From positions 1 through 40,096 of the forward strand of contig DSAS01000099.1 of NCBI GenBank assembly GCA_011046365.1: a stretch of DNA of 40,096 nt. Direction: 5' to 3'. Both the position numbers and the translations under genes were made by a program. The notes under the pieces are model-generated. The model made no database searches, was not told the origin of the DNA, and saw only the letters and a list, made by a program, of their open reading frames with translations. This document shows positions 2,442 through 38,023 of the stretch, in pieces (position 1 is the stretch's first letter; each line of letters opens with the position of its first letter). This DNA is from Fidelibacterota bacterium. GTDB taxonomy: Bacteria > Fidelibacterota > UBA2242.

Positions 2442-2511
2442 CATTTCCGCTCTCTTTTGACCCGATGAGCAACCCTTTTTTAAAACAACCCATAAACGCT
2501 AAGGATTGACT

Positions 2512-3771: not shown

Positions 3772-3795
3772 AACCTTTTCTGACTTTGATTCACC

Positions 3796-4737: not shown

Positions 4738-4786
4738 TTCCGCACTTTCGCATGGATTTTCAAATAATATCCCTTATCTTATTGTC

Positions 4787-5434: not shown

Positions 5435-5438
5435 TAAT

Positions 5439-5996: not shown

Positions 5997-6069
5997 ACAG
6001 TCGAAGAATTTTAAAAAAACATCGGTGCAATATTTTAATAACATAAAAAAATAACAGTGAGATGAGAAG

Positions 6070-8511: not shown

Positions 8512-8514
8512 CAA

Positions 8515-21068: not shown

Positions 21069-23447
21069 CTACTTCAATAACATCATTTTTAAAATATCTC
21101 TGGATTGCTCCGTCCGCAGTTCGCAAAAATAAATTCCGGAAGCCAATGTCTGGACATCCCAGTTAATCTTGTGCTCACCCGGAGATTGAATCCCGTTATA
21201 GAGGATTTGAACCAGCTGACCATTGATGTTCCGAATGCTGATCCGGACGGCTGTCTTTTGCGAAAGCACATATTGAATGGCGGTGACCGCATTAAAGGGG
21301 TTGGGAAAATTGTGGAGCAATCGAAATTCCGCCACCAGCCGGTCTGCGGCGATTTCAGTTCCGGACTGATTGGAAAGACCGGGCGTCGGCGTGTTGAAAA
21401 ATTGCCAGTTGTCGGCACCGTCGGGTAATCTGCCGAAGGAGATATCCGTTTCCTGTTCGCCAAAGCTCAACGAATCAATTACCGACACACCATCATCCGC
21501 CACAATCGCGAGAAACTCGCCGCCAGCACTGAGTTTGAAATTGGTATGATAGCCGGTTTGCTCTTCATCCTCGTCGCACCAGACCAGTAAAAACTCACCC
21601 GGCTCCAGTACAGTGCTGCCGGATGGAAACTGCCACTTGGTCAGATTGTCCGGTTTATCCGTGAGGTACAGACCGCTCAGCGCCACCGCCTGTTCGCCCA
21701 GATTTACCAACTCCACCCAGTCGTCATATTCGCCCTCCTGATCGGGATTTGTATGACTGTTGCTGGCTAAAAATTCATTGATTTTAAGGGAAATATTCTG
21801 AGGTTCAGTTACCCGGATTTCGATCAAACCGGTGCGCGGAAATCTAGACAAATCCGTATCAATTCCTGCTACCCTAACCATAAAGCGACCGGAGCCACCT
21901 GTTCCCAATGGCGGAATGACACCGCTCCAGCGGTCAGCCGCCTCTAGAATTTTTGTATCAGAAACCGGCGCGGGAACCATGGGGTAACTTTCGATGACTG
22001 TCAGATGTGCCGGATGATACTGAATTTCGATTGCCGGAATGGGGGTTGGGCTGAAGGCAGCCACCGAGACATATATTGAGTCATCCGGACCTGGCTGCCG
22101 AGGTTGATATTCCAGGTCATAAATAATCGGGAATGTATTGAGATATTCCAACTGAGCCGGCAGTGATGTATTGCGGACGGAGATAAACTCCTTTAAACCG
22201 GATTTGACGTGGTCTCCGTTTGCAGGTCTTGAGGAATATGACTGATGAAAATCGGCAATCGAGAAACCGTAATCGTAGGTACGGTATAGATCGGCTTCCG
22301 CCCAGGGTATGATCATTGCTTTGAGGCTGTCAATCCGGGCTTCGTTCAGCGCCAAATCTGTCACCTGAGCGGAATAAAATTCCAGCATATGCGTGTACAG
22401 ATTGCGGTATTCCGGTATTTCCAGAATCCGCATCAATGGTCGTCCATCATCGTCATTAACCGGATAATTATAGGGATCAACGGTTGACCAATCGGTATTG
22501 AACCAATCAATTCCGAAGGTATTGTCATAATCATAGGGAATCAGATGAAATTTATCCACCGCCGGTTCGTGATACAGATAGTAATTATTTTGCAGAAAGC
22601 GGTAATCGTCCCAGCTGCCGGTCAGGATATTCATGGCGAAATATTTCAGCACCCCGGGAACTGACAAAATTTGCTCAATGGAATCCACAAAGTCAGCCTC
22701 CGGTGTGTTGTTCAGAATGTCAATCAGGCGTGCCAGCTGACTGTAATCATACTCTTCTTCGTTGGTTTTCAATTCGTAGGGGCGCTCAGCATCTTGGTAG
22801 GGGTAATAATTTTCGGGGTTTGGACCGCGGTAATTTAAACTCGCCGGATAGAGGCACTTCCAGAGATTGCCCGATGGATCGGCAAAGCGTTTATCCACAA
22901 ACTCATCATCAATATGCTCGACAGATATATACAGTCCGTAATATTCATCGTTGATATAGACCGCCGCATGTGCCGCCCGGCTGGCGATTAGACCGATATC
23001 ATTGAACCAGTCCCAGCAGATTTTGCTGCGGATAATGGACGGATCGTTATGTTCGCCATTCAGGTTCATCTTATCCAATCCGTAAAATTCCCGACCCGGT
23101 ACGAAGGTATTGAAGGAAATCTTGAACGACTTCTTCCGTGAATCCCGGGAAGTGTTGCCACGCAGACGGAAGCCGATATTTTCAACCGTTTCATCAATGT
23201 ATTTATTCTTAAAATGAAACTGCGCCAAATGCAGCGAATCGCTCTGGCGATTTTCCCAGGTGTAGATCCATTCCAGGACTGCGGGTGCGATGGTGATCCG
23301 GATTTCCGTAACTGCGGTGTCGTCGAAGACCATCCAGGAATTTTCGTCAGCGAATAACATGCTTCCTTCGATAAAAAACAGCCCCACAACCGCCAGCACG
23401 GCAACTATTTTACGCTTCGATTTCCTGAATTTTTTTCCGCTTCTCAT
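21069..23447 (-). CDS. Secreted CotH-kinase-like protein with lamin-tail domain and T9SS tail
   Basis: About 792 residues. After the signal peptide (KRKIVAVLAVVGLFFIEG, then a cut near LFA) comes a CotH-like region: RLRGNTSRDSRKKSFKISF, LNGEHNDPSIIRSK, YYGLYISVEHIDDEFV and IPYDYDNTFG, the last a likely metal-binding DxD. CotH proteins are atypical secreted protein kinases. A lamin-tail domain follows (KINEFLASNS ... DDWVELVNLG), then a sorting domain with LLHNFPNPFNAVTAIQY ending LKMMLLK. I start at ATG 23447, which gives one normal signal peptide; the in-frame ATG at 23504 would add a second hydrophobic stretch. Neither has a clear ribosome site. The nearest minus-strand gene upstream is the head-GIN pseudogene. 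Confidence 0.88.
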   Translation of the reverse strand: MRSGKKFRKSKRKIVAVLAVVGLFFIEGSMLFADENSWMVFDDTAVTEIRITIAPAVLEWIYTWENRQSDSLHLAQFHFKNKYIDETVENIGFRLRGNTSRDSRKKSFKISFNTFVPGREFYGLDKMNLNGEHNDPSIIRSKICWDWFNDIGLIASRAAHAAVYINDEYYGLYISVEHIDDEFVDKRFADPSGNLWKCLYPASLNYRGPNPENYYPYQDAERPYELKTNEEEYDYSQLARLIDILNNTPEADFVDSIEQILSVPGVLKYFAMNILTGSWDDYRFLQNNYYLYHEPAVDKFHLIPYDYDNTFGIDWFNTDWSTVDPYNYPVNDDDGRPLMRILEIPEYRNLYTHMLEFYSAQVTDLALNEARIDSLKAMIIPWAEADLYRTYDYGFSIADFHQSYSSRPANGDHVKSGLKEFISVRNTSLPAQLEYLNTFPIIYDLEYQPRQPGPDDSIYVSVAAFSPTPIPAIEIQYHPAHLTVIESYPMVPAPVSDTKILEAADRWSGVIPPLGTGGSGRFMVRVAGIDTDLSRFPRTGLIEIRVTEPQNISLKINEFLASNSHTNPDQEGEYDDWVELVNLGEQAVALSGLYLTDKPDNLTKWQFPSGSTVLEPGEFLLVWCDEDEEQTGYHTNFKLSAGGEFLAIVADDGVSVIDSLSFGEQETDISFGRLPDGADNWQFFNTPTPGLSNQSGTEIAADRLVAEFRLLHNFPNPFNAVTAIQYVLSQKTAVRISIRNINGQLVQILYNGIQSPGEHKINWDVQTLASGIYFCELRTEQSRDILKMMLLK

Positions 23448-23619
23448 TAATAATAAGATAAGCAAATTGTGCGTCAGATACATGATAAAACGGATACGCA
23501 TCATTGAATCTGAAAAACCTTAATTTAAAACTGAGTGTAGGGAATGTAAGGTGGATTTAAAATTGACCTTTGTCCGCTGCGATCGGCTTGAATGCCGCAT
23601 AGATCCCGGACAATAACAA

Positions 23620-23645
23620 AAAAGCCCCGACGAATCGGGGCTTTT
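23620..23645 (-). terminator. Intrinsic terminator after the head-GIN pseudogene
   Basis: AAAAGCCCCGA (23620-23630) pairs perfectly with TCGGGGCTTTT (23635-23645) around a four-base loop. Read on the minus strand the stem is followed by a run of T (23618-23623) and TTATTG. It lies 18 bases past the pseudogene's stop, which is where its transcript should end. Confidence 0.85.
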
Positions 23646-23662
23646 CCAGCAGGAATGTCAAG

Positions 23663-24393
23663 TTATAACCGGCTGACTCTCGAGAATCCGCTGGATTCAA
23701 CCGTGCTGATCTCACCCTCTCCGCAATACTTAACCTTGGAAGAACCGCTGGCGCGGACATCCATTTCACCGTCAATATTGATCACACAATTACTGGCGCC
23801 GCTCAGATACAGATTGGCATAATTGCTACAGAAATCACCCATCCTGACGTTGCTGGCACCGCTGGCATGAATAAGCAGGTTTTCACCCCGTCCTTTCAAG
23901 GTGACATTGCTGGCGCCCGACAGATTCAAATCGAGATTACCGGTCTCAATCAGACCTTTCACCCGACTGGCACCCGATAGGTTGAGTACCAAGTCGTGTT
24001 TGAAACTAAATCCCTCTAATACCGCCGATGATGCACCACTCAAGCTAAGCTCCCCAATGTCCGGCATGGTGATCTCCGCTTCCAGTGGACCATTTCAGCA
24101 GGAGCGGTGGTTTTTCAAACCGATATGCAGGGTGCGCCCACGTTTTTCAACGACGATATAATCCCGGAGGTCCTCATCCACCTGCAGGGTCACATTGTAC
24201 ACTTACCCTGAAGAATGCGGGCTTTGAAGGCACTTGAAATTTCGACCTTGTCAAAATCCTGAAAATCTTTCTGAATCGTCACCGTTTTACCGGCTCCCCA
24301 GATGGATTTTGCCGATAATATCACCGGGCTGATAATGAGCAGAAGCAGTATGATCCAGCCGGTCAATTGAATTAAAAAATCTTTGTGTTTCAT
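23663..24393 (-). pseudogene. Broken head-GIN (DUF2807) exported protein gene
   Basis: The gene starts well: ATG 24393 with AAGGAG eight bases upstream, a signal peptide (about 1-28), and DFDKVEISSAFKARILQG, the usual head-GIN opening. The frame then hits TGA right after the codons for KCTM. Shifting frame near 24198-24206 restores YNVTLQVDEDLRDYIVVEKR and GRTLHIGLKNH, but a second stop, TGA at 24095-24097, follows HRSC. The same frame then continues into the LSGAS-rich beta-helix (at least four LSGASxx or ASGASN turns) down to 23663. So one frameshift (probably one base lost) and one nonsense change (perhaps TGG to TGA) disable it. Two sequencing errors are possible but less likely. Head-GIN proteins are putative periplasmic adhesins. 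Confidence 0.85.
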
Positions 24394-24523
24394 GGCTATG
24401 TCTCCTTCTTCCCAATTTTTTAAAGCAGTTAGCCGTAAGACATATCCAACCATTAAAAAGTTGTCTGGAAATAATGAAAATATGTTTTTGGGAGTTGAAA
24501 TTACAGGAGGTAGAGATAATGGC

Positions 24524-26032
24524 TTACAAACGATCCGCGGCGGAGAGGTACTGAGTTTTGGAATTCAACCGGTTGAAGTCATGAATCAGCCGGTATACTG
24601 CCGGAATCTCCTGTTGCAAACGCTGGACGGTTTGCCCGCCAATACTCGCCCGCGAGAAAGGAACCCGCCGGACATACTCCTGAATCTCGCCGGCGCGGCG
24701 GTGGTATTTATATTCATAGGTGAAATTGCCCGCCGCATCCAGCCGAACCGCCGGATTGGCTCGGTTCGGAATACTGATATAAAACTCACTACGGGTAAGA
24801 TCGGCATTATTTGTCAACCGCCGGTAAAGCAAAAATTCATACAGTTCTCGGGCAGTATTTTCAGCCGGGTCCACCAGGACAATTGTATCTGCCAGACAGG
24901 CTTGATAAACCGGCTGCCCGTTTTCCTGATAATGATACAGCCGCTGCAGTTGCTCCCGGAGCTGTGCGCTGTAGAAGGGGTAATGTGTACACCCCAGAAT
25001 AATGACCTTGAGGGGTGCTGGCTGCGAAGCGTCCCGGACCTGTTCCAGCAAAGATACAATATGATATCTAATGTAGTTCTCCACAGAATTCAGCTGAATC
25101 GTGTCCGGATTTTCCCGGCTGCCTGAGTACAATATCCGGTTTTCAGTCCAATCGAAATCATAGCGGGGTAATTTGGTACTCTCGATCACCGCTGCAGAAT
25201 GCTGAAGCGCCGGACCACGGTATTGTCCATACGGATCTGTCGCATCGGGGCGTATGTATTCGGTTGATCCGTCAATTGCCCCTGCGAGTCCGATGCCGGC
25301 TTGCTGAAACACCGCAACACTTCCGCTGAATTTATGTTTCTTAATATAGCGTTCGATTGCCTGTTTATATCCTCCCGATGCAACGGTCTCGGCGGTCGCC
25401 ATGACACCGATGCTGCAATTTTCACTCTTTTGAATATGCTGGAATGCGCCCCGCACCCCGGCACCGATGACACCGATAACATGGATATCCAATCCGGCTT
25501 TTTCCAGAAAAGACTCAATCGCGTCCTTTCCCACCGCGGTGGCTGTATTACAGGCGATCACGATCGATTTTACCGGCATTTTATCCGTCTCGAAGGTCAC
25601 CGCTTCCGCCGAGCGGTAATATTTACCCCCCAGTAAAAACTGAACATCCTTGATGATGTGTTCCTGCAGCAATTCCGGATTGTTTTCCGCGGCGTAATTC
25701 CCATAAGGCATATTCGCCTGATCACCCAGATAGATAAACCATTCTTTCTGAAAATCGGGAACGCCGTCTCCGCCGGAAATCACCTCCCCGGTCCGGTTGT
25801 CAAACCCATCAAACCGGATAATTGCATCCAATACGGTCAATCCGCCCGTTCCGGAATCAAATATGCCCACTGGCAGCGCCGGATCAGATTGCGGGTATTG
25901 ACGAACATCCAGATAGAAAAAACTGGTCTCATCGTTTAAAATCGAATCAACGATAACGTAATTATCCGAAGAGCCACAAGATTGAAAGACGCTTAAGCCA
26001 GCTAGCCAGATGATAATCTTCCACCTAAACAT
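24524..26032 (-). CDS. Exported lipoprotein related to glutamate racemase
   Basis: The 502-residue protein carries the full glutamate racemase (MurI) signature: PVGIFDSGTGGLTVL with the conserved Asp59, FIYLGDQANMPYGNY, the first catalytic Cys in IVIACNTATA (Cys161), GVIGAGVRGA, and the second catalytic Cys in IILGCTHYPF (Cys348). MurI is normally a cytoplasmic protein of about 265 residues that makes D-glutamate for the cell wall. Here a lipoprotein-type signal (hydrophobic core, then VFQSC, Cys19) precedes it, with insertions after the first motif and before the second Cys, and about 80 extra C-terminal residues. ATG 26032 gives the best signal; ATG 26062 adds ten residues. The lipobox has Phe at -3, which is unusual. 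Substrate and product outside the cytoplasm are unknown. Confidence 0.85.
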   Translation of the reverse strand: MFRWKIIIWLAGLSVFQSCGSSDNYVIVDSILNDETSFFYLDVRQYPQSDPALPVGIFDSGTGGLTVLDAIIRFDGFDNRTGEVISGGDGVPDFQKEWFIYLGDQANMPYGNYAAENNPELLQEHIIKDVQFLLGGKYYRSAEAVTFETDKMPVKSIVIACNTATAVGKDAIESFLEKAGLDIHVIGVIGAGVRGAFQHIQKSENCSIGVMATAETVASGGYKQAIERYIKKHKFSGSVAVFQQAGIGLAGAIDGSTEYIRPDATDPYGQYRGPALQHSAAVIESTKLPRYDFDWTENRILYSGSRENPDTIQLNSVENYIRYHIVSLLEQVRDASQPAPLKVIILGCTHYPFYSAQLREQLQRLYHYQENGQPVYQACLADTIVLVDPAENTARELYEFLLYRRLTNNADLTRSEFYISIPNRANPAVRLDAAGNFTYEYKYHRRAGEIQEYVRRVPFSRASIGGQTVQRLQQEIPAVYRLIHDFNRLNSKTQYLSAADRL

Positions 26033-26097
26033 AATCTTTCTGTGAGTAAAAAACCGATACATAGTGAAAAAATACAGTAAAAGAGAGAAATTTGAAA

Positions 26098-26113
26098 GGC
26101 TTTATAAAAAGCC
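26098..26113 (-). terminator. Weak intrinsic terminator after the metallophosphoesterase-propeller gene
   Basis: GGCTTT (26098-26103) pairs with AAAGCC (26108-26113) around ATAA. On the minus strand the hairpin is followed by TTTCAAATTTCTCTC. It lies 48 bases past the stop at 26162. The stem is only six pairs, so termination may be partial. Confidence 0.4.
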
Positions 26114-26161
26114 AATTGAGGATTGTTTAGAATAGATAATCTGTGAAAATATTTGACTTAC

Positions 26162-28627
26162 CTACTTCACCAGCATCATCTTCCGTGTAAGCTGCTCACT
26201 GCCAATCCGCAACTCATATAAGTAGATACCTGAAGCAAGTCTCCCGGGATTCCAGGCGGTCGTATACGTGCCCGGCGCTAGTCGCCGATTCACCAAAAAA
26301 GCAACTTCCTCTCCAATATAATTATAGACCCGTAACTGAGCCGTTCCTGCCTTGCAAAGGGAGAAACCGATTTTCGTAAATCCGTTAAAAGGATTCGGAT
26401 AATTCTGATGTAGTGTAAAATTTTCTGGTAGCGTAAATGTATCCTGAGATATCCGGGTAATGTAGGACTCGCTATAGTCATACCCTTTGACAAGCAATTC
26501 GAAAATTCCATTATTATTCATGTCATCCTCCCAAAGAATGACATAATTCTCCGGATCATGCAAAGCGACCACCGGCTCAAACTGCTGTCCGCCGGCATTT
26601 TCATTCACCGTGAAAACACCCCGCTCTCCGCGGCTTCCGTCAGCATTGAACTCCGCAGCATAAATCTGATAGTAGCCGTTCCCGTCATTATCATCCTGAA
26701 ATGCAACTACGAAATCGCCCGTTTCAGCCAGGGCAACCGACGGTCGGAGTTGCTGCCCGGCGGTAACAATGTTAATCGTTACATCACCGAACAACTTTTC
26801 ACCCTGATCATTGAAGCCGGCGGCATGAATCTCATAATTCCCGTTACCATCACTGTCATCTTCCCAGGCAATGATAAAATCACCGGCGGAATTGACATCA
26901 ATTGATGGATTCTGATGTTGTCCGCCGCTGTTGGCGTTGACCGTCATTTCCGGTAATATTTCAGCGCCGGCATCGTCCAATACCACAGCCCTAATCTGGG
27001 ATAAACCGTCATTATCATCGTCACTTTCCCACGTGACTATAACTGAATTACCCGAAGAGACAACAATGTCGGGATTCCGCTGCGGACCGCCGGATAGCAC
27101 ATTTACCCGAACATCATCAAAACGTCTGTTGCCGTTCAGATCGAATTCTGTCATCATAATATCCGGCTTACCGTTTGTATCCCGGTCGTCTTCCCAAACA
27201 ACGATAAAGGTGCTGTCGGACGTCATCGTTACAGATGGGGAAATCTGGTTGCCGGCGGTCGTCGAATTAATTGTAATCACAGAAAAACACTCCTGCCCGG
27301 TTTCGTTAAAACCACTTGCCCGGATATCGTAATTGCCATTTTCATTATCTTCCCAGACAACCACATACTGCCCCTCCGATCCAACGGCGACATCCGGGTT
27401 GTGGCAGATTCCATCGGTCATTGAGGACATACTGATTGCCGGAAATTTCGGTTTTCCGGACAGCCTGAAACCGCGGGCTTTAATAGTAGTACCGTTGCCG
27501 CTGCTATCCTGCCAGGTGGTGATAAAATCCCCATTGGGCGCCATTGAAATAGCCGGTTCAGACTGGTTGATTTCATCGGAAGCCTGGACAGTCATATCGT
27601 TGAAGGTATTATCGAAACGGAGATATTTTCCCTCTACCGGACCACTCATATCATAATCAAGTGAATAATTATGGGCAGGATCGTTAGGATTCGACGGATA
27701 ATCACTCCGGTTAAATTCATACACATCGTCCAGTACCGAAAGGACCCGGACATCAATCCGGTTCTCATCGGGAAAAAACTCCAAGGTGCGTAGCCAGCCG
27801 TTACCGTGGTTCACATCATTCCGCTGTTCAAACTGATAATCGGTCAAAACCTCATAGACCGTATTGCCGAGATTTCCGGTCCGAATCATCAGCTCTGAAT
27901 CACCCACATGCCCGGAGACTACCATAAAGATATTACTGTGGCGCCGAACGAACTCGTTCCAGGTGGTATTGCCACCACTGCCGGCAATATCATACGCAGT
28001 GCCGCAATTGCACTGATGAACTGCGTCATGCCCCTGGTAGCAGTGCGTTGCCACGATCACCCGCCGATCCGGATATTGTAATAATAGCGAGTCTGCCCAG
28101 CAGAGCGCCTCTTTACTGGGTGCAAATTCCAGATTCACGATCATGAATTTCAGATCGTGAACTTCGAAAAAACAGTAGTTATTGTCGTTGGTATTGCGAA
28201 AATGCCCACCGTACCAGGCGCGTTCATCAAATCTTTGCGGACCAAAATATTGATTGTATCGCTTAGTGTCGCGCTTCCGACCACCATCTGGATTATCGTG
28301 ATTCCCGGGGATCACACTGTAGGGCACATTGGCATTATCCAGAATGTCGTGAGCCGCACTGGCAGCTTGCCATTCTGTAAGAGTATTAGTGTGCGTAATA
28401 TCACCAAGATGAATGACAAACCTGATATTGCGGAAATTTTTATAATATGCGATCCATTCAGTCTGGGCGTTATAGGTCGCCGGGTCCCGCAGGGAGTAAT
28501 ACTGAGTATCCGGCATTAATACTACTACAAAGGGTGATCGTGCAGCGGTTGCCGCTCGGGTGGCAATGTGTATAAACATGCCCAGAAATACAAGGGTGCC
28601 TGCTAAAAACAGATTTCTGACTTTCAC
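26162..28627 (-). CDS. Secreted metallophosphoesterase with seven Asp-rich repeats and T9SS tail
   Basis: About 821 residues. A signal peptide (KVRNLFLAGTLVFLGMFIHI) precedes a calcineurin-like phosphoesterase: PDTQYY, HLGDITH, IPGNHDNPDG, VIVATHCYQGH and VVSGHVGDSE give the five metal-binding blocks, with Gln in place of the usual His in the first (DxQ). Residues ~358-722 hold seven repeats of 52-56 residues with a VVxWEDDxxxNG core, probably a beta-propeller. The sorting domain begins LHQNYPNPFNGFTKIGF and ends RKMMLVK. I take GTG 28627 as the start because AAGGA precedes it at good spacing and it leaves a normal signal; in-frame ATGs exist at 28642 and 28726, the latter inside the upstream gene. 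Substrate unknown. Confidence 0.87.
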   Translation of the reverse strand: MKVRNLFLAGTLVFLGMFIHIATRAATAARSPFVVVLMPDTQYYSLRDPATYNAQTEWIAYYKNFRNIRFVIHLGDITHTNTLTEWQAASAAHDILDNANVPYSVIPGNHDNPDGGRKRDTKRYNQYFGPQRFDERAWYGGHFRNTNDNNYCFFEVHDLKFMIVNLEFAPSKEALCWADSLLLQYPDRRVIVATHCYQGHDAVHQCNCGTAYDIAGSGGNTTWNEFVRRHSNIFMVVSGHVGDSELMIRTGNLGNTVYEVLTDYQFEQRNDVNHGNGWLRTLEFFPDENRIDVRVLSVLDDVYEFNRSDYPSNPNDPAHNYSLDYDMSGPVEGKYLRFDNTFNDMTVQASDEINQSEPAISMAPNGDFITTWQDSSGNGTTIKARGFRLSGKPKFPAISMSSMTDGICHNPDVAVGSEGQYVVVWEDNENGNYDIRASGFNETGQECFSVITINSTTAGNQISPSVTMTSDSTFIVVWEDDRDTNGKPDIMMTEFDLNGNRRFDDVRVNVLSGGPQRNPDIVVSSGNSVIVTWESDDDNDGLSQIRAVVLDDAGAEILPEMTVNANSGGQHQNPSIDVNSAGDFIIAWEDDSDGNGNYEIHAAGFNDQGEKLFGDVTINIVTAGQQLRPSVALAETGDFVVAFQDDNDGNGYYQIYAAEFNADGSRGERGVFTVNENAGGQQFEPVVALHDPENYVILWEDDMNNNGIFELLVKGYDYSESYITRISQDTFTLPENFTLHQNYPNPFNGFTKIGFSLCKAGTAQLRVYNYIGEEVAFLVNRRLAPGTYTTAWNPGRLASGIYLYELRIGSEQLTRKMMLVK
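26462..27556 (-). repeat. Seven tandem protein-level repeats (probable seven-bladed propeller)
   Basis: Each unit begins P[SDA][IV] and has a strand such as FIVVWEDD, an Asp/Asn/Gly-rich turn (DSDGNGNYEI in unit 5), a strand like IHAAGFND, and a spacer ending in GGQ or AGNQ. Seven copies run without a break. DNA-level identity is low, so the duplications are old. Confidence 0.8.
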
Positions 28628-28661
28628 TGATTTTCCTTCCATTACAATGTTAAAATTCCAG

Positions 28662-29741
28662 TTAATCGAACTCTTTCCGACCGAGGATTTTATCTGACTC
28701 TGTATAAAATTCCAGGACAGCAGCATCGTTCGCCGGACTGCGCTCCTTGTATCGCGCTGCGCGCCACCATTTCGCCGCCAACAAATTCTCCCGCGCCTCC
28801 AAATGGACGGTTTCTGGTAGAGCCACCATCGGGGTTTTCCAGGAAATTGCGAACCGGCTCAGCGTGAAAACCGAATAGCGCAGGGGGTAGGAATTAATGG
28901 ACGGCGTTACAAAATAGTTGACTCCGTTTTCTTCCTTAAACCGCAGCCCGATATGACGGTGACCGGAAATCACCACCGGCGCCGACTGAGAATTTCGGGA
29001 GAGAATTTGACGCGCTTCGCTGTCATTATCAATGCAAAACCAGGCTTTCGATTTTCCCGGTTGTTCATCCTCTGACCAGCGGATGAAATTGTGATGCATA
29101 AACACTATATTAATCTCATCGTCATTTCTGCTTAATTGGCGATCCAGCCAGTCCAGCTGTTCCTGCGGCAAAATCCCGCCCCAACAAACCGGATTATCGG
29201 GCAAGCAGGCATCGAGACCGATCAGGTGCAAGCCCGGCACGATCTGTTTTGCATAGTACCGTTTCCCGGCTCTTCCGTAACCGTAATCTCTGAAAAACTC
29301 AATGAATTCATCAATTTTTAAATAGGTAAATCCTGTCCGGCACTTTTTCGGATCAGGCGGCATAAAGTCATGATTGCCGCAAATGACATACGCCGGCATC
29401 TTCAACTGCTGCAGGGAGCTGCGGACCACCCGAGCGTTTTCCAATTCACCATCCAGCAATAAATCTCCCAGAACGATCACAAATCTCAGATTTTCTTCGG
29501 CATTCAGAGCCGCTACCGTCTGACGCAGACAAGCGACACTTGCAGCACTCATCTTCATCTCATTTTGACTTTGGGTATCAAGATGAATATCGGCAATTAC
29601 CGCGAAGCGCACCGGTTCAAACGCGATTCGTCCCGGACGAGCAAATAGTTTTATAATAACGTTACCGGATAATGCTGCACCAATCACAGAGGTACCGGTT
29701 AATTTTAGAAAATCCCGTCTGGAAAATTGGTTACTTTTCAT
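28662..29741 (-). CDS. Tat-exported metallophosphoesterase
   Basis: The 359-residue protein begins with a twin-arginine signal (SRRDFLKLTGTSVIG, Arg8-Arg9), so it is probably exported folded, with its metals bound. The calcineurin-like blocks are FAVIADIHLD (DxH), IVLGDLLLDGE, YVICGNHDF, FMHHNF and VISGHRHIG, a complete set. This is a different subfamily from the phosphoesterase gene that follows it at 28627. The gap between them is 34 bases, so co-transcription is likely. AAGAG lies six bases ahead of the ATG. The substrate cannot be read from sequence; phosphodiesters, nucleotides and sugar phosphates are all possible. Confidence 0.88.
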   Translation of the reverse strand: MKSNQFSRRDFLKLTGTSVIGAALSGNVIIKLFARPGRIAFEPVRFAVIADIHLDTQSQNEMKMSAASVACLRQTVAALNAEENLRFVIVLGDLLLDGELENARVVRSSLQQLKMPAYVICGNHDFMPPDPKKCRTGFTYLKIDEFIEFFRDYGYGRAGKRYYAKQIVPGLHLIGLDACLPDNPVCWGGILPQEQLDWLDRQLSRNDDEINIVFMHHNFIRWSEDEQPGKSKAWFCIDNDSEARQILSRNSQSAPVVISGHRHIGLRFKEENGVNYFVTPSINSYPLRYSVFTLSRFAISWKTPMVALPETVHLEARENLLAAKWWRAARYKERSPANDAAVLEFYTESDKILGRKEFD

Positions 29742-29829
29742 GATACTCTTACCACTTCAAAAACATACGCTGCTTTAAAAAGGATTTCTCAAATCTATGT
29801 TCATCATCCAATATCACTGGGTAATTCGA

Positions 29830-30624
29830 TCAGCGCCCTTCCTCTGTCAGAGTACAAACAGTGTGGAGAATATCGGCAAAAAGCCGGGCTGCCGGCTCCG
29901 CTGCCACAGCGCCATATTTCGTAACTCCCGCTTCATCCTTTGTAAACATGGACTGAACCAGCGGTACTATCTGCGCCCGGGCGTTGATGCGATTGTCCTT
30001 AAATCGAAAAAAGATCGCTTCGGAGGTTTCCACCAAATTTTTTCCCAGTAACTGGGGTTCATAACCGGAAATGTTGACGGTAAACACAGCTCTATCCACA
30101 GCGCGATGAATATCCATCGGCTGTGGATAGTCGGGCGAAATGAGTAGCTGAGCAATCGTCTTATCCGGCAGTACATGAACCGGACAGGCATTATCTTCAA
30201 TAAAATGAGCCAATGAACCCAGATACTTTGCGGCTTCGAGGGGCTCACCTTTCTGGAGATTCAATACAGCGTGGTGCATTAGCTTCGTCGTGATATAAAA
30301 ACACACCTCACTGTTGTCATCATCATTTTTATGCCACTGTTTGATGTTCTGCAACAGCGGTAAAGCAACATAGGGTTCGTAAAAATCAATCCGCGCCTGA
30401 TTCTTCTGCCGGACGGCGGCGCGGTGGTAATCCGGATTCAGCGAGTAGTGCTCGATCATCGAATCCGCCGCACTACCAAACATCCGCTGCTCTTTTCTCG
30501 TCAATTGCTCAAAGGCAGCCCGGGTAATATTGGCATGATTGACCTTATCCCAGGCAAAAACGGTGGACTGCAGTATAACCGCTGCCGCAATCCAGAAGAT
30601 TAATTTCCCTTTTTTAATATTCAT
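29830..30624 (-). CDS. Zinc-dependent phospholipase C / S1-P1 nuclease-like exported protein
   Basis: A 264-residue protein of the phospholipase C/P1 nuclease fold. The signal peptide ends TVFA, so the mature protein would start with Trp25 (AWDKVNHANI). In this superfamily the mature N-terminal Trp binds zinc directly. His30, the KLMHHAVLNL helix, and the LGSLAHFIEDNACPVHV block (an HxxxD-type motif and a second His) supply the other likely ligands. Known members cleave phospholipids or single-stranded nucleic acids; this one cannot be assigned. AAGGA lies seven bases before the ATG. It follows the parvulin-like gene by 34 bases and precedes the Tat phosphoesterase by 88, all on the minus strand. 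Confidence 0.75.
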   Translation of the reverse strand: MNIKKGKLIFWIAAAVILQSTVFAWDKVNHANITRAAFEQLTRKEQRMFGSAADSMIEHYSLNPDYHRAAVRQKNQARIDFYEPYVALPLLQNIKQWHKNDDDNSEVCFYITTKLMHHAVLNLQKGEPLEAAKYLGSLAHFIEDNACPVHVLPDKTIAQLLISPDYPQPMDIHRAVDRAVFTVNISGYEPQLLGKNLVETSEAIFFRFKDNRINARAQIVPLVQSMFTKDEAGVTKYGAVAAEPAARLFADILHTVCTLTEEGR

Positions 30625-30658
30625 TGCTTTGTCCTTATGATTTTTTACTGGCTTATTC

Positions 30659-32224
30659 TTAATTGGACGAGCCGAGCAACCGATTCAGAACCTCTTCTGC
30701 ACCCCACAATACGTCCGGTATCGGAAACGCCTCCCGCAGATAGGGCAATCCCAGTTTATATACTTTTACATCCGGCAACCGACCTGCCCGGGGTTCATCC
30801 ACCTGGACATTTTTCAGATTTTCCGGATAGAGGATTACCTCAATTCCGCTGTTTTTTGCCAGTTCCATCAATCTGTCCTGAGCCTTTTTCATCGTCAGCA
30901 GACCGCTTAAATAAGATTCTACCTGTTCAAATTCGACATTCTGCGCATACGCCGTTTTTCCATACAATGATTCAACTTCCGACTGCTCCGGTTGACAGAT
31001 GTTTTTGACCGAATCTATGAGAACCTGGGTCGTATATTTTCTTTCCCAGCGATCCAGCTGATACCGAATCTCCGAGTCGCGGTCATAGTTGCGCTTTAAT
31101 GCCTCTTCCTCCAGGCAAACATCCCGGATGGTACGACCGATGATGGTTCGCAATTTCCCCGCCAGCTCGGAAAAATCGGCTGCCCGTAAATCCAGGGGGC
31201 GATAGGAGAGATGGTACAGCAACTCGCGAACCGTCCAATGCCCGTCCTTAAAGCGTACCGCCGGTTCGTCGTAATAATCCACCAACTGTTCGGAAACCTG
31301 ACGAAAGGAGAGAGGTTCGGGAGAAGCGGGCGTCTGTTGCAAACCGGAGTCCTGAACAGCTGCTTTGATGAGCGAATGAAAGGTGCGAGCCAGGACGTTA
31401 AAAATCTTGCCATCAACGACCACTTCCTTTGGGTCCATAAAATCCTTCAGAAATCTGCCGGTCTGCAGGCGGTCTTTCTTATAGCGGATAACCTGTTCAT
31501 AGCGGTGCCGGTATTTGGTAAAATCCGATTCCGCCAGGATTCTGCGTCGCGAACCGACCTTTTTAATGATAAAGTAGCCTTTTCCATGGGAGATAATCGG
31601 TGATATTTCAGAGGGTTTAAGATTAAAAATTGTTTCATTAAATGGTTCCTGCAGCTCGCCGTAACCGATAAAGTCGGTTTCACCATTCTCGACGGCGATG
31701 CCCAGGCGTCCCAGTTTGTTCTCAAGCAGGCTGTCAAAGTCAGCGCCGCAGTCCAGTTCCGCTTTTAAACGCTGGGCCTCATCAAAATCGGCGGTATACA
31801 GGTATTTTACTTTATTTTCGATGGCGGATTTGGCAATCGCCTCCCGAATTTCCTCTTCGCTGACACTGATCTTTTCGCCGACCTCGACATTAAACATCTT
31901 TTCCACCAGCAGCTCCTGCTTCAGCAGACGCATGGACTTCTGAACATACTCGCCGGATTTTTTCTCCTGTACCTGAGGCAGCTGCGCCAAAATCGCTTCG
32001 TTTACCATTGCCTGCAAATAGCTCTCTTTGGCACCATCAACACTTTTTAAAAAAGAGGGACCAAAACTATAGCTTTCAATAAAACTTTTCTCTGTAATAA
32101 TTACATCGCCCACCTTCGCTAGGACGGGTGTGTTATCATGATACTGCCGCCGGCTGCAGGAGACCGCAACCAGCAGGATAAAAATCGTTATGGCAGAATA
32201 AAAAGACTTTAGACGTTTTCTCAT
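30659..32224 (-). CDS. Parvulin/SurA-like lipoprotein (probable periplasmic chaperone/PPIase)
   Basis: A 521-residue lipoprotein: the signal ends ILLVAVSCS, with Cys23 as the lipid site. The SurA/PrsA-like N-terminal chaperone region has 'ESYLQAMVNEAILAQL'. A single, rather divergent rotamase domain lies at about 135-225 (FIGYGELQEPFNETIFNLKPSEISPIIS, then GKGYFIIKKVG). The C-terminal half (about 290-521) is helical and has no relative I recognise; a 'DGHWTVRELLYHLSY' segment repeats the style of the N-terminal part. It overlaps the preceding T9SS cargo gene by four bases (ATGA), so it may fold that protein or the exported enzymes downstream. Weak rotamase motifs leave enzymatic activity open. 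Confidence 0.82.
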   Translation of the reverse strand: MRKRLKSFYSAITIFILLVAVSCSRRQYHDNTPVLAKVGDVIITEKSFIESYSFGPSFLKSVDGAKESYLQAMVNEAILAQLPQVQEKKSGEYVQKSMRLLKQELLVEKMFNVEVGEKISVSEEEIREAIAKSAIENKVKYLYTADFDEAQRLKAELDCGADFDSLLENKLGRLGIAVENGETDFIGYGELQEPFNETIFNLKPSEISPIISHGKGYFIIKKVGSRRRILAESDFTKYRHRYEQVIRYKKDRLQTGRFLKDFMDPKEVVVDGKIFNVLARTFHSLIKAAVQDSGLQQTPASPEPLSFRQVSEQLVDYYDEPAVRFKDGHWTVRELLYHLSYRPLDLRAADFSELAGKLRTIIGRTIRDVCLEEEALKRNYDRDSEIRYQLDRWERKYTTQVLIDSVKNICQPEQSEVESLYGKTAYAQNVEFEQVESYLSGLLTMKKAQDRLMELAKNSGIEVILYPENLKNVQVDEPRAGRLPDVKVYKLGLPYLREAFPIPDVLWGAEEVLNRLLGSSN

Positions 32225-34191
32225 TTCAACAATACCACCTTCTGTGAACAGGTTGGGCTATCATCAAGCAACAATTGAATAATATAGACACCGGATGCAA
32301 ATTTATCGGCATTCCAGGTATAATATAAAGTCGTTCCGGAGCCGCTATTCTTATGGGAAACAGAATCAATGATCCGTCCGTGCAGATCGTAAATATTGAG
32401 CAGACTGGTAACAGCATTTCCAACCTTGTAGTGAATACTCAGTCGGTTATTAAACGGATTGGGATAAGCCACCAACTTATACTCTCCCGGCAGTATACTG
32501 TGCCCCTGCGATTGGATTCTCGTACCCCCATTGATCCGATCGGCAAAGAGCACCTCTCTGGAAATTTCGAACAGGAAAGGAAAAAATTGGGACCAGGGAT
32601 TGGACTCCCGGCTGGAATAATAGAGCGCCGATGACTCGGAAGATATCAATAAATTGCCTGCTCTATTAAAGGTTACATCTTCAGTTCCCGCCGGAAGGTA
32701 AAAAATCGTATCCGGCTCCGCCAGCTCCCAGCGGGACAGTTTACTTCTGGAATACCGGTATAACTTGGAGTCCCTGTCACCGGAGCTGCAAGAGGCGAAG
32801 AGGTAATCCTGCCCCTGAAACTTTGTCCAGGCGGCACCCTGGACATACATCGGCAACATATAGAATGTCGGTTTCGCCGCCAAATCAACAACCCCGGATT
32901 GGTTCATCGGGTAACCCGCCAGATAGGCTGTTTCCCCGGTCTCATCGGCATATTTCGTACAGCACCAGAGAGTATCGGAAAAATAGGTGGCGGACGCGGA
33001 ATACATACTCTCCGACCATACATAACCAAGAGTCTGATATTTCTCTCTGCCGGCGCCGCTGTATTCCGGAATTTCGAGCCGGTAACCCTTTCCGCCACAG
33101 GTCAGCAGGATATTTCCGCCCCGGTAAGCCATGGCGGTCATGTGCGCCGTCGCCAGATTACCATTCATTCGAAAACAGCGCCGAACCTGATAATCATTAT
33201 CTGGATCGAGTTCGACAATAATCGAACGTTTATTCCCCGTTGTACCGTCAATTTCACGGTGATAGAGGGAGATATATACCATGTCGCTGTCACCGGTGAA
33301 TTGATCATCCTCATAAGTATTTGTCAATCCCTGCGGAATATAGCCATCGTTCGAGTAAGGCACGAAAACAGCCGCCGCAATCGGCACCTTACTTGTCCGA
33401 ATCCGCTTTTGATAAATGTCGGAACCGGAGTGATAATAGCGGTAATAGGGCAGACCGAAATAGCCACTGCCATCCAGCGGGTAGTAGGCGTTATTATATA
33501 CTGCCCCGAACTCTTCGGTTTTCAGCTCCAGAGCGTAAATTTCACCGATATAGGTGCTGTTTTCCAGTGCGGTATTGAAACCGATTATCAGATGTCCCTC
33601 CAGAGATTCGAAACCGATGGGGTAGTGCACAATCGCTGCCTTCTGTTCGGCAACCAGCTGACGATTCAGATAGAGTCGCTGCCGAATCGTATCAGCGACG
33701 GTACCACTAATCCACTGTACGTAATTCCATTCGTTCTGCTTACAGCTGTCGGTTGATTGAATCTCGAACAGCATATACTGCAGATTGCGTTTAAAGTGTA
33801 ACCTGCCATCTTCAAGTATCAGAGCAAAGATCACGTCACCGTAACTATCCAGCAATGTCAGCAGGTTTCCATTCCGGCAGTCCGGCTTGAACCAGATTTC
33901 CCCTGAATAATCGTGATCGTTGTAGAAAGATGAGCGCAGGGTATCGGGACACCGGACAAAGGCGGAATCCTGAGTAAACAGAGTCGTGTAGACCGTCCGG
34001 AAATCCCAGCCTCCCGGACCCCGGGCGGTTGTTTCTTCAGCCGGCAGATATTCCTGAACTGTAATATGGCTGCTCACAATCGGCGACTGAAGAGGAGAAC
34101 CAGGGGCAAGATCGGAATTATAGCGAAACAGCACCTTGGCGTTCACGCCGGTGAGAAATATGAACAGGACTGGTAAAATCATTTTTTTCAT
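32221..34191 (-). CDS. Secreted T9SS cargo with LamG-like domain
   Basis: A 656-residue exported protein. After the signal peptide (MKKMILPVLFIFLTGVNA) a concanavalin/LamG-like region runs from about 75 to 225 (GEIWFKPDCRNGNLLTLLDS, then GHLIIGFNTALENSTYIGEI). The middle (about 260-560) has repeated beta-strand pairs such as GNILLTCGGKGYRL and DYLFASCSSGDRDSKLYRY, suggesting a propeller; I cannot name its family. The sorting domain is VAYPNPFNNRLSIHYKV ending QKVVLLK. No catalytic motif is seen, so it is more likely a binding or structural protein. It is the first gene of the minus-strand operon that includes the parvulin-like lipoprotein and the phosphoesterases. Confidence 0.75.
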   Translation of the reverse strand: MKKMILPVLFIFLTGVNAKVLFRYNSDLAPGSPLQSPIVSSHITVQEYLPAEETTARGPGGWDFRTVYTTLFTQDSAFVRCPDTLRSSFYNDHDYSGEIWFKPDCRNGNLLTLLDSYGDVIFALILEDGRLHFKRNLQYMLFEIQSTDSCKQNEWNYVQWISGTVADTIRQRLYLNRQLVAEQKAAIVHYPIGFESLEGHLIIGFNTALENSTYIGEIYALELKTEEFGAVYNNAYYPLDGSGYFGLPYYRYYHSGSDIYQKRIRTSKVPIAAAVFVPYSNDGYIPQGLTNTYEDDQFTGDSDMVYISLYHREIDGTTGNKRSIIVELDPDNDYQVRRCFRMNGNLATAHMTAMAYRGGNILLTCGGKGYRLEIPEYSGAGREKYQTLGYVWSESMYSASATYFSDTLWCCTKYADETGETAYLAGYPMNQSGVVDLAAKPTFYMLPMYVQGAAWTKFQGQDYLFASCSSGDRDSKLYRYSRSKLSRWELAEPDTIFYLPAGTEDVTFNRAGNLLISSESSALYYSSRESNPWSQFFPFLFEISREVLFADRINGGTRIQSQGHSILPGEYKLVAYPNPFNNRLSIHYKVGNAVTSLLNIYDLHGRIIDSVSHKNSGSGTTLYYTWNADKFASGVYIIQLLLDDSPTCSQKVVLLK

Positions 34192-34254
34192 AACGTGGTA
34201 AAATACCCTTTTTTCACGGCAGATTCTATAAATAATGTCGTTACTATTACATCA

Positions 34255-34284
34255 GGATGGGCGGCTTTTGATTGCCGCCCATCC
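34255..34284 (-). terminator. Perfect 11-bp hairpin after the LamG/lamin-tail cargo gene
   Basis: GGATGGGCGGC (34255-34265) pairs with GCCGCCCATCC (34274-34284) over an eight-base loop. It starts 30 bases past the stop at 34314. On the minus strand it is followed by TGATGTAATAG and no T-run, so it may end or stabilise the transcript in a way other than classic intrinsic termination. It separates the surface-protein operon from the next one. Confidence 0.6.
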
Positions 34285-34313
34285 ATCGGGGATCGATATT
34301 TAAAAGATCCAAT

Positions 34314-36893
34314 CTACTTCAGCAGAATCATCTTATTAGTCTGCGTGAAGTTTTCCGCCTGTAGACGATAGAAATAGACTCCGGCGGAAACCGCCTGACC
34401 GTTCCGGTTCCGTCCGTCCCAGCGAATCTGATAGTAGCCGGCATCATATTCTTTGTCCGCCAGCACGGCGATCTTTTTACCCAATATATCGTAAACCGTC
34501 AATGACACTTGCGAACGACTCGGTACGTCAAACTGCAGCGTAGTTACCGGATTAAACGGATTGGGATAATTTGAATGCAAAGCAAAGGATTTCGGTAAAC
34601 CGGATTCTCCTTCGCCTACATTACTGACAACAATCGAGTTTTCAAAATTAACCGTTTGACCAGGAGAAAAACAGGAATCGTTCAGAGCCACCGTTTTATG
34701 CTGCACATAGGGATCGTCTTCGCTCAGGTCTCCATCCGGAAACAGCGTAATCGAGTTGTTGTTCCAGGTGGAATCCCGGACGTCAAACCGAATCTCGAAA
34801 TCGATTCCTTCAGCCGATTTAATGTGGGGATCCCCCTTGTACAGGCGACCCCGGTTCTGGATGTACATATCCTCCGTCCCGTCGGCAGAAACTAACAATA
34901 TGGCTTCATCGGTATTATTCAAACCATTTCCAAGACGATCAATAACATCAGACACAAATACTCGAGATTTAAGTGGGTTGACATTAAAACCGGGCACACC
35001 GGTGATATTGCCACCGGAAAAAATGACCACAATCTGACCCGGAGCCATGATATAGCCATCAGGGAAGGTAAAGGTTAATTCTTCGTCATCACCAACCCGC
35101 CACCCGGTCATATCCACATGATCGTTGGATATGTTAATAAGCTCAATAAATTCGTCCTGGTTGGAATCAATTATCCCATCACCATTGGCATCTTTATAGA
35201 CATCAAAATTGACCTCATTGATGACAATTCGGGGGGTGATCTGGACTCGCGGTACAAAGTGAGCCACCACATGCTGCGGCTTATTGATAGACATTGTAAG
35301 AGGATTCAATTTGCTTTTAAATCCTTCATCACTGTTGGTCCAATAGCCGAACGCGTGACCTTCACCGTAAATCGGCAGGGCGTTAAAGGTGACAACCTGG
35401 TTGTATTCGTACCGCGCCATGACTGTATCAATCTCCAGCGTCCCAACGCCTTCGGGGTCCATGCTCATCGTTACAACATAGGATAGATAGTCGGCACCGT
35501 CAATCGTCGTGCCCGCCGAAAAATTCACGGCGGCAACCTCGCTATGCACAACAAACGGGTCTTCCACTTCGGTATTGGCATCCTGGTTGCGGGTTATCGA
35601 GGCTCCCTGATCAGCCGCGGCAGCCGTTGTAATGGCAAATTCCCAGTCCATCCCTTCAACCACCGCAGAATTCGGCGCTCCTGCCGAGGCGGCACTGCCC
35701 ACCGCCAGATAGACATCCGAATAGCCGAGCCGCGATTTAAGGATAATATATTCTCCCGCCGCATCCAAGCCATCACCGATCGTACCATTGGCGGCAAAGA
35801 CCGCCGTTTTCAGCGGATCGGCGTCATAGCCCGGCAGACTGCTGACATCACCACCACCGACCACCGTCACAAATTTGTGTGGCGGAAGAAAGTATCCATC
35901 CGGGAAGGTGAAATTCAACGCCTCGTCATCACCCAGCTGCCAGCCGGAAAGATCAACCGCCTTATCGGCGATGTTGGCCAGCTCGACAAATTCATCCTTC
36001 AGATCGCTGACACCGTCACCGTTGACGTCATTACCAGTCTCATCCAGCAGAACCTCATTAATGATAATTTTTTCCGAATATACAATATCCACCCATTGCG
36101 GGGCGTCCACATAATCGTTAAAGTCGTTCCCCAATTTTCCGTCGAACAGACCAAAGGCGGCATCGTAGGCAACATAGCCTTCACCCTCGTCAAAATGCCA
36201 GAGCGCCATGGTATTGGCATCCGCTATAAAGGGCTCGGTGGGAACTTCAAAATCCTCAGTGTAGCGAACGACATTGGAAATCCGGAATTCGTCAATTGTA
36301 CCCCGAAAGCCGTCCCAGGTGGTAGACATCTGCTCCGTCGTCTGATTGCCGATCACAATCGGCATGTTGCCGCTCTCCACATCCAGCGGGGGATAGGTGT
36401 CATTAATCAGCCCTGACGGTGTTCGATCCGCCATCTGGACGCCGTCCACCCAGATGCGCATCGAATCGTTGACATCCCAGGTGACCGCTACATGATACCA
36501 GCGGGGTTGCCAGACCTGAATTTCGTATGTGTGCACTGAGGCGGTTTTACTCACGTCCTGAATCCAGGAGTGTAAATCGCCGGCTCCGGTCTGCCAGGCA
36601 ATCCCGAAATCGCCCTTGGCGGCGCCGCCCTGATTTTTTGAAATGATGTAGGTATAGGTATTGCCATGATTGTCCGAACGCAATGTCGAATCCAGTTTAA
36701 AGAAACACTCCACTGTTCCCTGATACACATGCTCCGGCCAATAGTCCACCGACTGGAGAACCAGCAGCCGGTCGTGCTCCCACCATTTATAGTGAAGCGC
36801 TTTGCCCCATTGTGCCGAGACTGTTCCGGAAAATAAAGCCATCACCAGAAACGTCACACAGAAATTTACGACTGTAGCATTTCTTTTTTTCAT
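34314..36893 (-). CDS. Secreted LamG plus two lamin-tail domains with T9SS tail
   Basis: An 859-residue surface protein. The signal peptide ends VSAQ (about residue 27). A LamG-type domain covers about 30-240 (GTVECFFKLDS, WYHVAVTWDVNDSMRIWVDG, GTIDEFRIS, ALWHFDEGEG). Two lamin-tail domains, each with a calcium-type D-x-N-G-D-G loop, lie at about 276-385 and 555-665; they share IINEV, DEFxEL, GWxxGDDE and FTFPDGY. Between them is a strand pair like InlB-type repeats (NKPQHVVAHFVPR). The sorting domain starts LHSNYPNPFNPVTTLQF and ends KMILLK. ATG 36893 is chosen because GGAGG lies five bases upstream. The PorV-like gene precedes it by 30 bases. Confidence 0.88.
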   Translation of the reverse strand: MKKRNATVVNFCVTFLVMALFSGTVSAQWGKALHYKWWEHDRLLVLQSVDYWPEHVYQGTVECFFKLDSTLRSDNHGNTYTYIISKNQGGAAKGDFGIAWQTGAGDLHSWIQDVSKTASVHTYEIQVWQPRWYHVAVTWDVNDSMRIWVDGVQMADRTPSGLINDTYPPLDVESGNMPIVIGNQTTEQMSTTWDGFRGTIDEFRISNVVRYTEDFEVPTEPFIADANTMALWHFDEGEGYVAYDAAFGLFDGKLGNDFNDYVDAPQWVDIVYSEKIIINEVLLDETGNDVNGDGVSDLKDEFVELANIADKAVDLSGWQLGDDEALNFTFPDGYFLPPHKFVTVVGGGDVSSLPGYDADPLKTAVFAANGTIGDGLDAAGEYIILKSRLGYSDVYLAVGSAASAGAPNSAVVEGMDWEFAITTAAAADQGASITRNQDANTEVEDPFVVHSEVAAVNFSAGTTIDGADYLSYVVTMSMDPEGVGTLEIDTVMARYEYNQVVTFNALPIYGEGHAFGYWTNSDEGFKSKLNPLTMSINKPQHVVAHFVPRVQITPRIVINEVNFDVYKDANGDGIIDSNQDEFIELINISNDHVDMTGWRVGDDEELTFTFPDGYIMAPGQIVVIFSGGNITGVPGFNVNPLKSRVFVSDVIDRLGNGLNNTDEAILLVSADGTEDMYIQNRGRLYKGDPHIKSAEGIDFEIRFDVRDSTWNNNSITLFPDGDLSEDDPYVQHKTVALNDSCFSPGQTVNFENSIVVSNVGEGESGLPKSFALHSNYPNPFNPVTTLQFDVPSRSQVSLTVYDILGKKIAVLADKEYDAGYYQIRWDGRNRNGQAVSAGVYFYRLQAENFTQTNKMILLK

Positions 36894-36923
36894 AAACACC
36901 TCCAAGTTTTTTTTAATAATTGG

Positions 36924-37997
36924 TCAAAATGATAATCCCACTGTAAAATGCTGGACATACGCCAGACGTCCCCAGTCAACAATCGCATAATCAAATCGCA
37001 ATGCTGTTTGCTGAAACAGCTTATAGTTGATGCCGGCTCCAAAGCTCAAACCGCTTTCCGCCTCTTGGTCAAACAGCGCCTCATATCCAATGCGCAGGAA
37101 AAACAGTTTTGCCAGAGCATACTCGCAGCCCACATTCAGGTATTCAACATTATTGCTGGGGTGTAACAGATCTACCGCCAGCGTCAAATCATTGTATTTA
37201 AAAGGTGAAAAAGAGTACGCCAGCCCGAACCGAAACAGCAGCGGCATCGGGAATGCATCGGTTTCCAGCATGGCATTAATTTTATCGTTGGAATAGTGAA
37301 TCGGGTCCTCGTCATGAGCCCGCCGAACATCACGACCAGCCAGGCGCATATCGGTCCCGAAATTGGAAATACTGGCGCCCAGATTCAGACCTTTTAATTG
37401 TGTTTTATAGAGCAAACCGATATCCACGGCATACCCCGCTGACGACATATGCCAGATCTGCTGACGCACATATTTCCCCGTTAGTCCGCATGCGAACCGG
37501 TCGGTGATCTTCAGACCGTAGGTCATAGCCAGCGCCAAATCCGAGGCGCTATAATACTCACCAGTCCCTTCAGGATACGTCACAGTGCGGACCGTCTGCT
37601 TATCGATGGCATTGAAAACCGACAGGCTAAATCCCACAATCTGACCATTACCCATCGGCACGATCCCGGCGGCATGGTCCAGTGACATGTCGGCGAACCA
37701 CTCGGTATGAGTGCCGGTCACGCTGATAGCGTCAATCTGGGTAATCCCCGCCGGATTCCAGTATAGCGCGGTCACGTCATTGGCTACCGCCGTAAAAGCA
37801 CTACCCATGGATAGCGCCCTGGCGCCGATTCCAATCTCCAGAAACTGGGCGGAGGACGATCCTTTCTTGTTGACCTCGCCCGTATAAATGAGTTCGGTGT
37901 ATTCCTCTTCCAGCTGTGCCCATAGATTTGAAATACTCACGCAAAACAGAGCGATCAATATTAATCTCAGTGGTAATTTTTGTTGCTTTCTATTCAT
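36924..37997 (-). CDS. PorV/PorQ-family outer-membrane protein
   Basis: A 357-residue beta-barrel protein. The signal peptide ends LWAQ. The opening block FLEIGIGARALSMGSAFTAVANDVTALYWNPAGI is the family hallmark (quoted in part, about 51-83). The remaining strands end in LAYVQHFTVGLSF, a C-terminal Phe typical of outer-membrane barrels. PorV is a T9SS outer-membrane component that receives cargo with type A C-terminal domains. It lies directly between two cargo-type genes (38024 and 34314), which fits a role in their surface delivery, though the family also has relatives of other function. AGAGGA lies five bases before the ATG. Confidence 0.85.
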   Translation of the reverse strand: MNRKQQKLPLRLILIALFCVSISNLWAQLEEEYTELIYTGEVNKKGSSSAQFLEIGIGARALSMGSAFTAVANDVTALYWNPAGITQIDAISVTGTHTEWFADMSLDHAAGIVPMGNGQIVGFSLSVFNAIDKQTVRTVTYPEGTGEYYSASDLALAMTYGLKITDRFACGLTGKYVRQQIWHMSSAGYAVDIGLLYKTQLKGLNLGASISNFGTDMRLAGRDVRRAHDEDPIHYSNDKINAMLETDAFPMPLLFRFGLAYSFSPFKYNDLTLAVDLLHPSNNVEYLNVGCEYALAKLFFLRIGYEALFDQEAESGLSFGAGINYKLFQQTALRFDYAIVDWGRLAYVQHFTVGLSF

Positions 37998-38023
37998 AAA
38001 ATCCTCTATTCAATCACGCCCTT

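Follow-up and report, generated by a model that had tools for sequence, protein, structure and literature searches.

The window (the whole stretch of 40,096 nucleotides that was analysed) carries on its minus strand, at positions 24524..26032, a gene for a long protein of the glutamate racemase type that begins like a lipoprotein. We consider it moderately probable that the product is a membrane-anchored racemase working outside the cytoplasm, where it would convert to L-Glu the D-Glu that is released from muropeptides or from other D-Glu compounds. The superfamily is already known; the exported lipoprotein-type family is so far uncharacterised. Export is well supported by the sequence comparisons described below; activity, substrate and direction are inferred. 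The initial annotation had proposed an exported MurI-type enzyme serving D-amino acid chemistry or the use of peptidoglycan fragments, and this proposal is supported by the conservation of the signal, an invariant catalytic set, a separate clade and the gene neighbours of some relatives.

The open reading frame (ORF) is intact and has HMM matches. From the ATG at 26032, which has an AGAAAG motif ahead of it, it encodes 502 aa, and an in-frame ATG upstream at 26062 would lengthen the product to 512 aa. The plus strand in the same frame is interrupted by stops. The coordinates had been given correctly before, and the strand, which was left out, is the minus. Relatives align over their full length with invariant catalytic residues, four pairs gave dN/dS values of 0.07–0.30, and 20 of 21 long forms retain the lipobox Cys although the N-terminus around it varies; on these grounds we judge the ORF to be a real gene and not a chance one. 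The host genome is a metagenome-assembled genome (MAG), 89% complete, in 187 contigs.

The N-terminus reads MFRWKIIIWLAGLSVFQS followed by Cys at residue 19 (residues 1–19, 25976..26032), with K/R in the n-region and an h-region of KD10 2.5. The lipoprotein-type start noticed earlier is a family-wide trait: all 21 aligned long forms have an n-region with K/R and then a hydrophobic stretch, and 20 of them have a Cys in the same column, 19–45 residues from the start used and 39–48 residues before FDSG, so that n-region charge, a hydrophobic h-region and a Cys at +1 occur together in the window protein and in 20/21 in all. The one relative without this Cys (L020) has a signal that ends in a signal-peptidase-I-like ARA. 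The residues preceding the Cys vary (LSA, LLG, SFG, FQS, FPS, FTS and others). Compared with the classical lipobox L-[ASTVI]-[GAS]-C, FQS-C of the window protein is a loose fit, and relatives include LSA-C and LLG-C. The Phe at −3 had been seen as the weak point of the lipobox, a concern that does not hold up, as Phe stands there in 10 of the 20 Cys-bearing members. Other ORFs in the loci, used as a reference, gave no more than 14 clear cases, of which one has Phe at −3; this is too few for statistics. A chance lipobox was ruled out by the conservation across relatives. In the mature part of the 21 sequences, conservation of Cys is confined to the two catalytic residues and a half-conserved one at 206. 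The host genome encodes signal peptidase II (LspA; PF01252, 48.5 bits, over cut-off). Because the +2 rule for lipoprotein sorting fails in Bacteroidetes (PMC5837995), inner versus outer membrane is not predictable for the long racemase.

The motifs reported previously are all in place: FDSGTGGLTVL at residues 58–68, IACNTATA at 159–166 and LGCTHYPF at 346–353. FDSGTGG (residues 58–64, 25841..25861), with the active-site Asp59 and Ser60, is invariant in 21/21 and aligned to D20/S21 of the host's own MurI (L002). PYG (residues 109–111, 25700..25708), the substrate side-chain loop of MurI, is invariant in long forms and canonical MurI. IACNTATA (25535..25558) contains the first catalytic Cys, Cys161, and LGCTHYPF (24974..24997) the second, Cys348, together with His350. 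Asp59, Ser60, Asp104, Pro109-Tyr110-Gly111, Cys161-Asn162-Thr163, Thr213, Thr216 and Cys348-Thr349-His350 are invariant in all 21 long forms, and no relative lacks the two catalytic Cys. The MurI active site, which we take to be D10, S11, PYG, C74-N-T, E153 and C185-T-H in B. subtilis numbering, is composed of residues whose roles in MurI are established. The only change at the mapped active-site positions is Asp254 (25271..25273), which replaces the invariant Glu162 of canonical MurI (PLVEEG): it is Asp in 21/21 long forms and Glu in 16 canonical rows.

A profile-profile alignment (hhalign) of the long forms to 16 canonical MurI gave an unambiguous match (100%, E 7e-48). The AlphaFold2 model (pLDDT 90.8, pTM 0.88), a check that had been suggested at the outset, has the MurI fold with inserts. 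In the fold search against the PDB, ranks down to 45 were all glutamate racemases (target TM 0.61–0.76), and the matches at E ≤ 0.001 were of the Asp/Glu/hydantoin type only, glutamate racemases first and then aspartate and allantoin racemases. Members of the superfamily have a pair of catalytic Cys and two alpha/beta domains that resemble each other, and Cys161, Cys348 and the fold match correspond to this. The score on PF01177 (Asp/Glu racemase superfamily) was 32.8–32.9 bits with a gathering score of 31, and all 21 relatives matched at E ≤ 0.001. On the MurI equivalog TIGR00067 the long racemase reached 86 bits, below the cut-off of 146.65, and no NCBIfam model claims it (best 86–88 bits against cut-offs of 146.65 and 328).

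The surplus over MurI, about 220 residues, consists of inserts at residues 75–93 (25754..25810; an hhalign gap of 19 columns), 136–151 (25580..25627; from the profile alignment), about 255–339 (25016..25270) and near 363–381, and of a C-terminal part (residues 421–502, 24527..24772) past the hhalign match to MurI. The main insert, at about 255–339, has invariant Y271, G273, P274, Y291, Q313, N315, N319, Y320 and Y323 and is mostly modelled with pLDDT above 90; in the C-terminal part F437, K442, Y443 and R445 are invariant.

A scan of 84,980 species genomes with a few short peptide patterns, which finds close relatives only, returned 16 loci, mostly full-length relatives 43–66% identical to the window protein; the 21 aligned long forms are 42–64% identical to it. 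Genome searches found the long form in 6 of 100 genomes of relatives, and in the phylum of G109 it is present in 8 out of 396. Although patchy, the distribution is wide. A look for the same long form in other FCB genomes had been suggested; it does recur, with carriers in Ignavibacteria, KSB1, Neomarinimicrobiota, Bacteroidota (including two isolates, Belliella filtrata DSM 111904 and B. kenyensis DSM 46651) and one Phycisphaerae MAG. In a 69-sequence tree the 21 long forms make one clade (SH-aLRT 100), apart from canonical MurI (the host's own included), from a further MurI-like group (about 302–322 aa) and from aspartate racemases. The outcomes named beforehand as refuting an exported racemase, namely no signal together with a placement within ordinary cytoplasmic MurI, or relatives lacking both catalytic Cys, were not seen. 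The nearest short sequences are the Cyclobacteriaceae-type MurI (SH-aLRT 95); the tree was built quickly and has long branches, and its deep order is unsure.

The host has a canonical MurI of 280 aa at another locus (252 bits on TIGR00067, over cut-off). The window protein had been described as about twice the length of MurI; it is indeed a long form, but at 502 versus 280 aa the factor is 1.8. A MurI over the cut-off was found in 10 of the 14 carrier genomes tested, the host's included. The four carriers without a canonical MurI are the MAGs G101 and G104, the latter with a 93-aa fragment, and both Belliella. In the Belliella family, 12 of 41 genomes are without a full canonical MurI by TIGR00067, and most of these are also without a long-form match, which raises the question of their D-Glu source. 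The long form as a general replacement of MurI was rejected, given the 10/14 carriers that have both and a loss of MurI in the Belliella family that is largely independent. Two further loci of the host genome were seen in passing. On C21 (L003:1351-2259) a second short MurI-like protein (302 aa, ACNTLSV) is flanked by an M20-type amidohydrolase (by eye) on one side and by an exported class-A-beta-lactamase-like protein on the other, and four relatives from other carrier genomes fall in one clade with it. On C23 (L001:1462-2154 and 2220-3350) an aspartate/cysteate-racemase-like gene adjoins a look-alike of DmpA-type aminopeptidase (by eye), possibly another D-amino acid pair.

Around the racemase, at 21069-39946 of the window, lies a minus-strand gene run with several T9SS sorting domains, a CotH kinase, lamin-tail domains and two calcineurin-like phosphoesterases. 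The flanks, with genes for T9SS cargo, phosphoesterase and DUF2807, hold no pointer to peptidoglycan. Near the racemase in the window and its closest relatives no peptidoglycan genes were found, and the shared neighbours are CotH/T9SS, DUF2807 and ABC-type genes; the context in the own lineage therefore gives no functional help. At L098:7723-9198 a Tat-signal calcineurin-like phosphoesterase (MetallophosN/C) is directly upstream of the racemase, as phosphoesterase genes are in the window. In Ignavibacteria the neighbours are a beta-CASP hydrolase and a sigma factor.

Elsewhere there are two settings in which the long racemase is recurrently linked to genes for D-amino acids or wall fragments. 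In the first, three members (L097, L099 and L014), whose identity to the window protein is only about 50% each, are found within or close to a same-strand cluster of the peptidoglycan-recycling type, made up of a BadF-type (sugar) kinase, an AmpG-like MFS protein and a GH3/beta-lactamase protein. L097 has the kinase (3368-4282), the AmpG-like gene (4305-6155), GH3+beta-lactamase (6159-9035) and the racemase (9139-10656); L099 has kinase, AmpG-like gene and racemase in a row without GH3; and L014 has a partial kinase at the contig end, the AmpG-like gene, GH3+beta-lactamase, four genes and then the racemase. A gene cluster that includes AmpG and the kinase MurK functions in peptidoglycan recycling in Tannerella forsythia (PMC7670621). 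Within the sampled phylum, 5 of 8 racemase carriers versus 1 of 388 non-carriers have an AmpG with at least 70% identity, over its full length, to the one of L097, and 6/8 versus 96/388 have any AmpG at E ≤ 1e-60 (Fisher p 0.005), leaving two carriers without one; shared ancestry inflates both comparisons. A kinase, AmpG-like and beta-lactamase cluster was also seen away from the racemase gene in carriers (L138, L139, L140); GH3 is part of a fusion in L140, a separate gene in L139 and absent from L138.

In the second setting, both Belliella and G385 (L016, L017, L094) have the order anti-sigma, SusC, SusD, small lipoprotein, beta-lactamase-fold hydrolase, racemase, D-aminoacylase. The gene of the exported D-aminoacylase overlaps that of the racemase by 4 bp, and among proteins of solved structure this enzyme comes closest to D-aminoacylase (E 1e-59) and N-acyl-D-glutamate deacylase (E 7e-49). 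A gamma-glutamyltransferase gene comes next in the two Belliella (in L017 by clustering).

We propose that Sec exports the racemase, that signal peptidase II cuts the signal and that Cys19 is lipidated. Judging from the invariant residues, Cys161 and Cys348 would form the two-base pair for MurI-type proton transfer at the alpha carbon, in a site probably made up of Asp59, Ser60, Tyr110, Asn162, Thr163, Asp254, Thr349 and His350. The job would be catabolic: extracytoplasmic D-Glu from muropeptides, or from other D-Glu or gamma-glutamyl compounds, would become L-Glu for uptake. The gene neighbourhoods of relatives and the separate cytoplasmic MurI point to this role rather than to a supply of D-Glu for the own wall. 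Several observations speak against this reading: the neighbourhood differs between lineages, catalytic thiols outside the cytoplasm are exposed to oxidation, shared ancestry confounds the association with AmpG, and both Belliella, being without canonical MurI, leave room for a biosynthetic link, although most other MurI-less relatives are also without the long form.

The same export could serve a different substrate. An epimerase acting on Glu in bound form (within a muropeptide stem, gamma-glutamyl peptide or N-acyl-Glu), with a pocket that the inserts widen or provide with a different lid, would be consistent with the additional residues, many of which are invariant in the main insert, and with the overlap in the operon with a D-aminoacylase, an enzyme of N-acylated substrates. 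We regard this as unlikely though credible, since the substrate loops of free-Glu MurI, PYG among them, are invariant. Its boldest form is a new class of cofactor-independent extracytoplasmic epimerase that inverts Glu still within the muropeptide, gamma-glutamyl or N-acyl compound by means of family-specific inserts, so that D-Glu stereochemistry would be removed at the cell surface before uptake, and this we think doubtful.

A role in wall editing or signalling through extracytoplasmic production of D-amino acids, like the one proposed for the broad-spectrum PLP-dependent racemases of the periplasm, is improbable for the exported racemase. Periplasmic racemases do exist, for example Alr of Pseudomonas putida, which is tied to amino acid catabolism (PMC6034422). 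However, the fold and chemistry of the long form are unrelated to those of PLP racemases, and those of its neighbours that are informative belong to uptake and breakdown (SusCD, AmpG-like, D-aminoacylase, GH3/beta-lactamase) rather than to wall editing by transpeptidases.

The two Belliella genomes without a TIGR00067 MurI could be explained by a MurI variant that stays in the cytoplasm or at the inner face of the membrane, held by an N-terminal hydrophobic anchor, and makes D-Glu for wall synthesis. This appears quite improbable: the Cys comes just after the hydrophobic stretch in 20/21, one relative has the cleavable signal-peptidase-I-like end, the charges around the signal favour N-in/C-out, most carriers have their separate MurI, and the MurI-less genomes of the Belliella family mostly do without the long form. 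Very improbable is a lipoprotein of racemase fold that has lost catalysis or been repurposed, for instance to bind glutamate or muropeptide. The score below the MurI equivalog cut-offs and the Asp in place of the invariant Glu might speak for it, but both Cys, His350 and all mapped pocket residues, needless for a binding protein, are invariant over several phyla.

MurI is usually regarded as a cytoplasmic enzyme of wall synthesis and a drug target. If the membrane-anchored catabolic racemase is real, it would shift the interconversion of D-Glu and L-Glu outside the cytoplasm and would be a candidate step in the use of D-Glu, a major D-amino acid of peptidoglycan, by marine and sediment bacteria. 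It would also pose the question of how a two-thiol racemase functions in an oxidising compartment. As two carriers are named Belliella isolates, the idea is testable in culture. In searches of an open-access collection of papers we found no report of an exported, periplasmic or secreted MurI-type glutamate racemase.

Among known systems, the long form shares with MurI (TIGR00067; B. anthracis RacE1, 2dwu; B. subtilis RacE, 1zuw) the fold, the two catalytic Cys and the D-S, PYG, CNT and CTH motifs, and differs from it in the signal peptide and lipobox, the additional length, the Glu-to-Asp change, the score below cut-off and the separate clade. Its motif spellings are nearly identical (ACNTATA and GC[TS]HYPF) to those of Cyclobacteriaceae-type short MurI (L102 and L107; L103 with variants), but these have 264–290 aa and neither signal nor inserts, and L102 and L107 keep Glu at the position of Asp254. 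The L003-type MurI-like proteins, found in the host genome and in several carriers, belong to the same Asp/Glu racemase superfamily; unlike the long form they are short, with the ACNTLSV motif and a clade of their own, and L003 has no lipoprotein signal. The broad-spectrum racemases Bsr and Alr are PLP-dependent enzymes of the alanine-racemase fold, a fold absent from the fold-search matches of the long form at E ≤ 0.001. What the long form is predicted to share with these periplasmic enzymes is the racemisation of amino acids outside the cytoplasm (PMC6034422).
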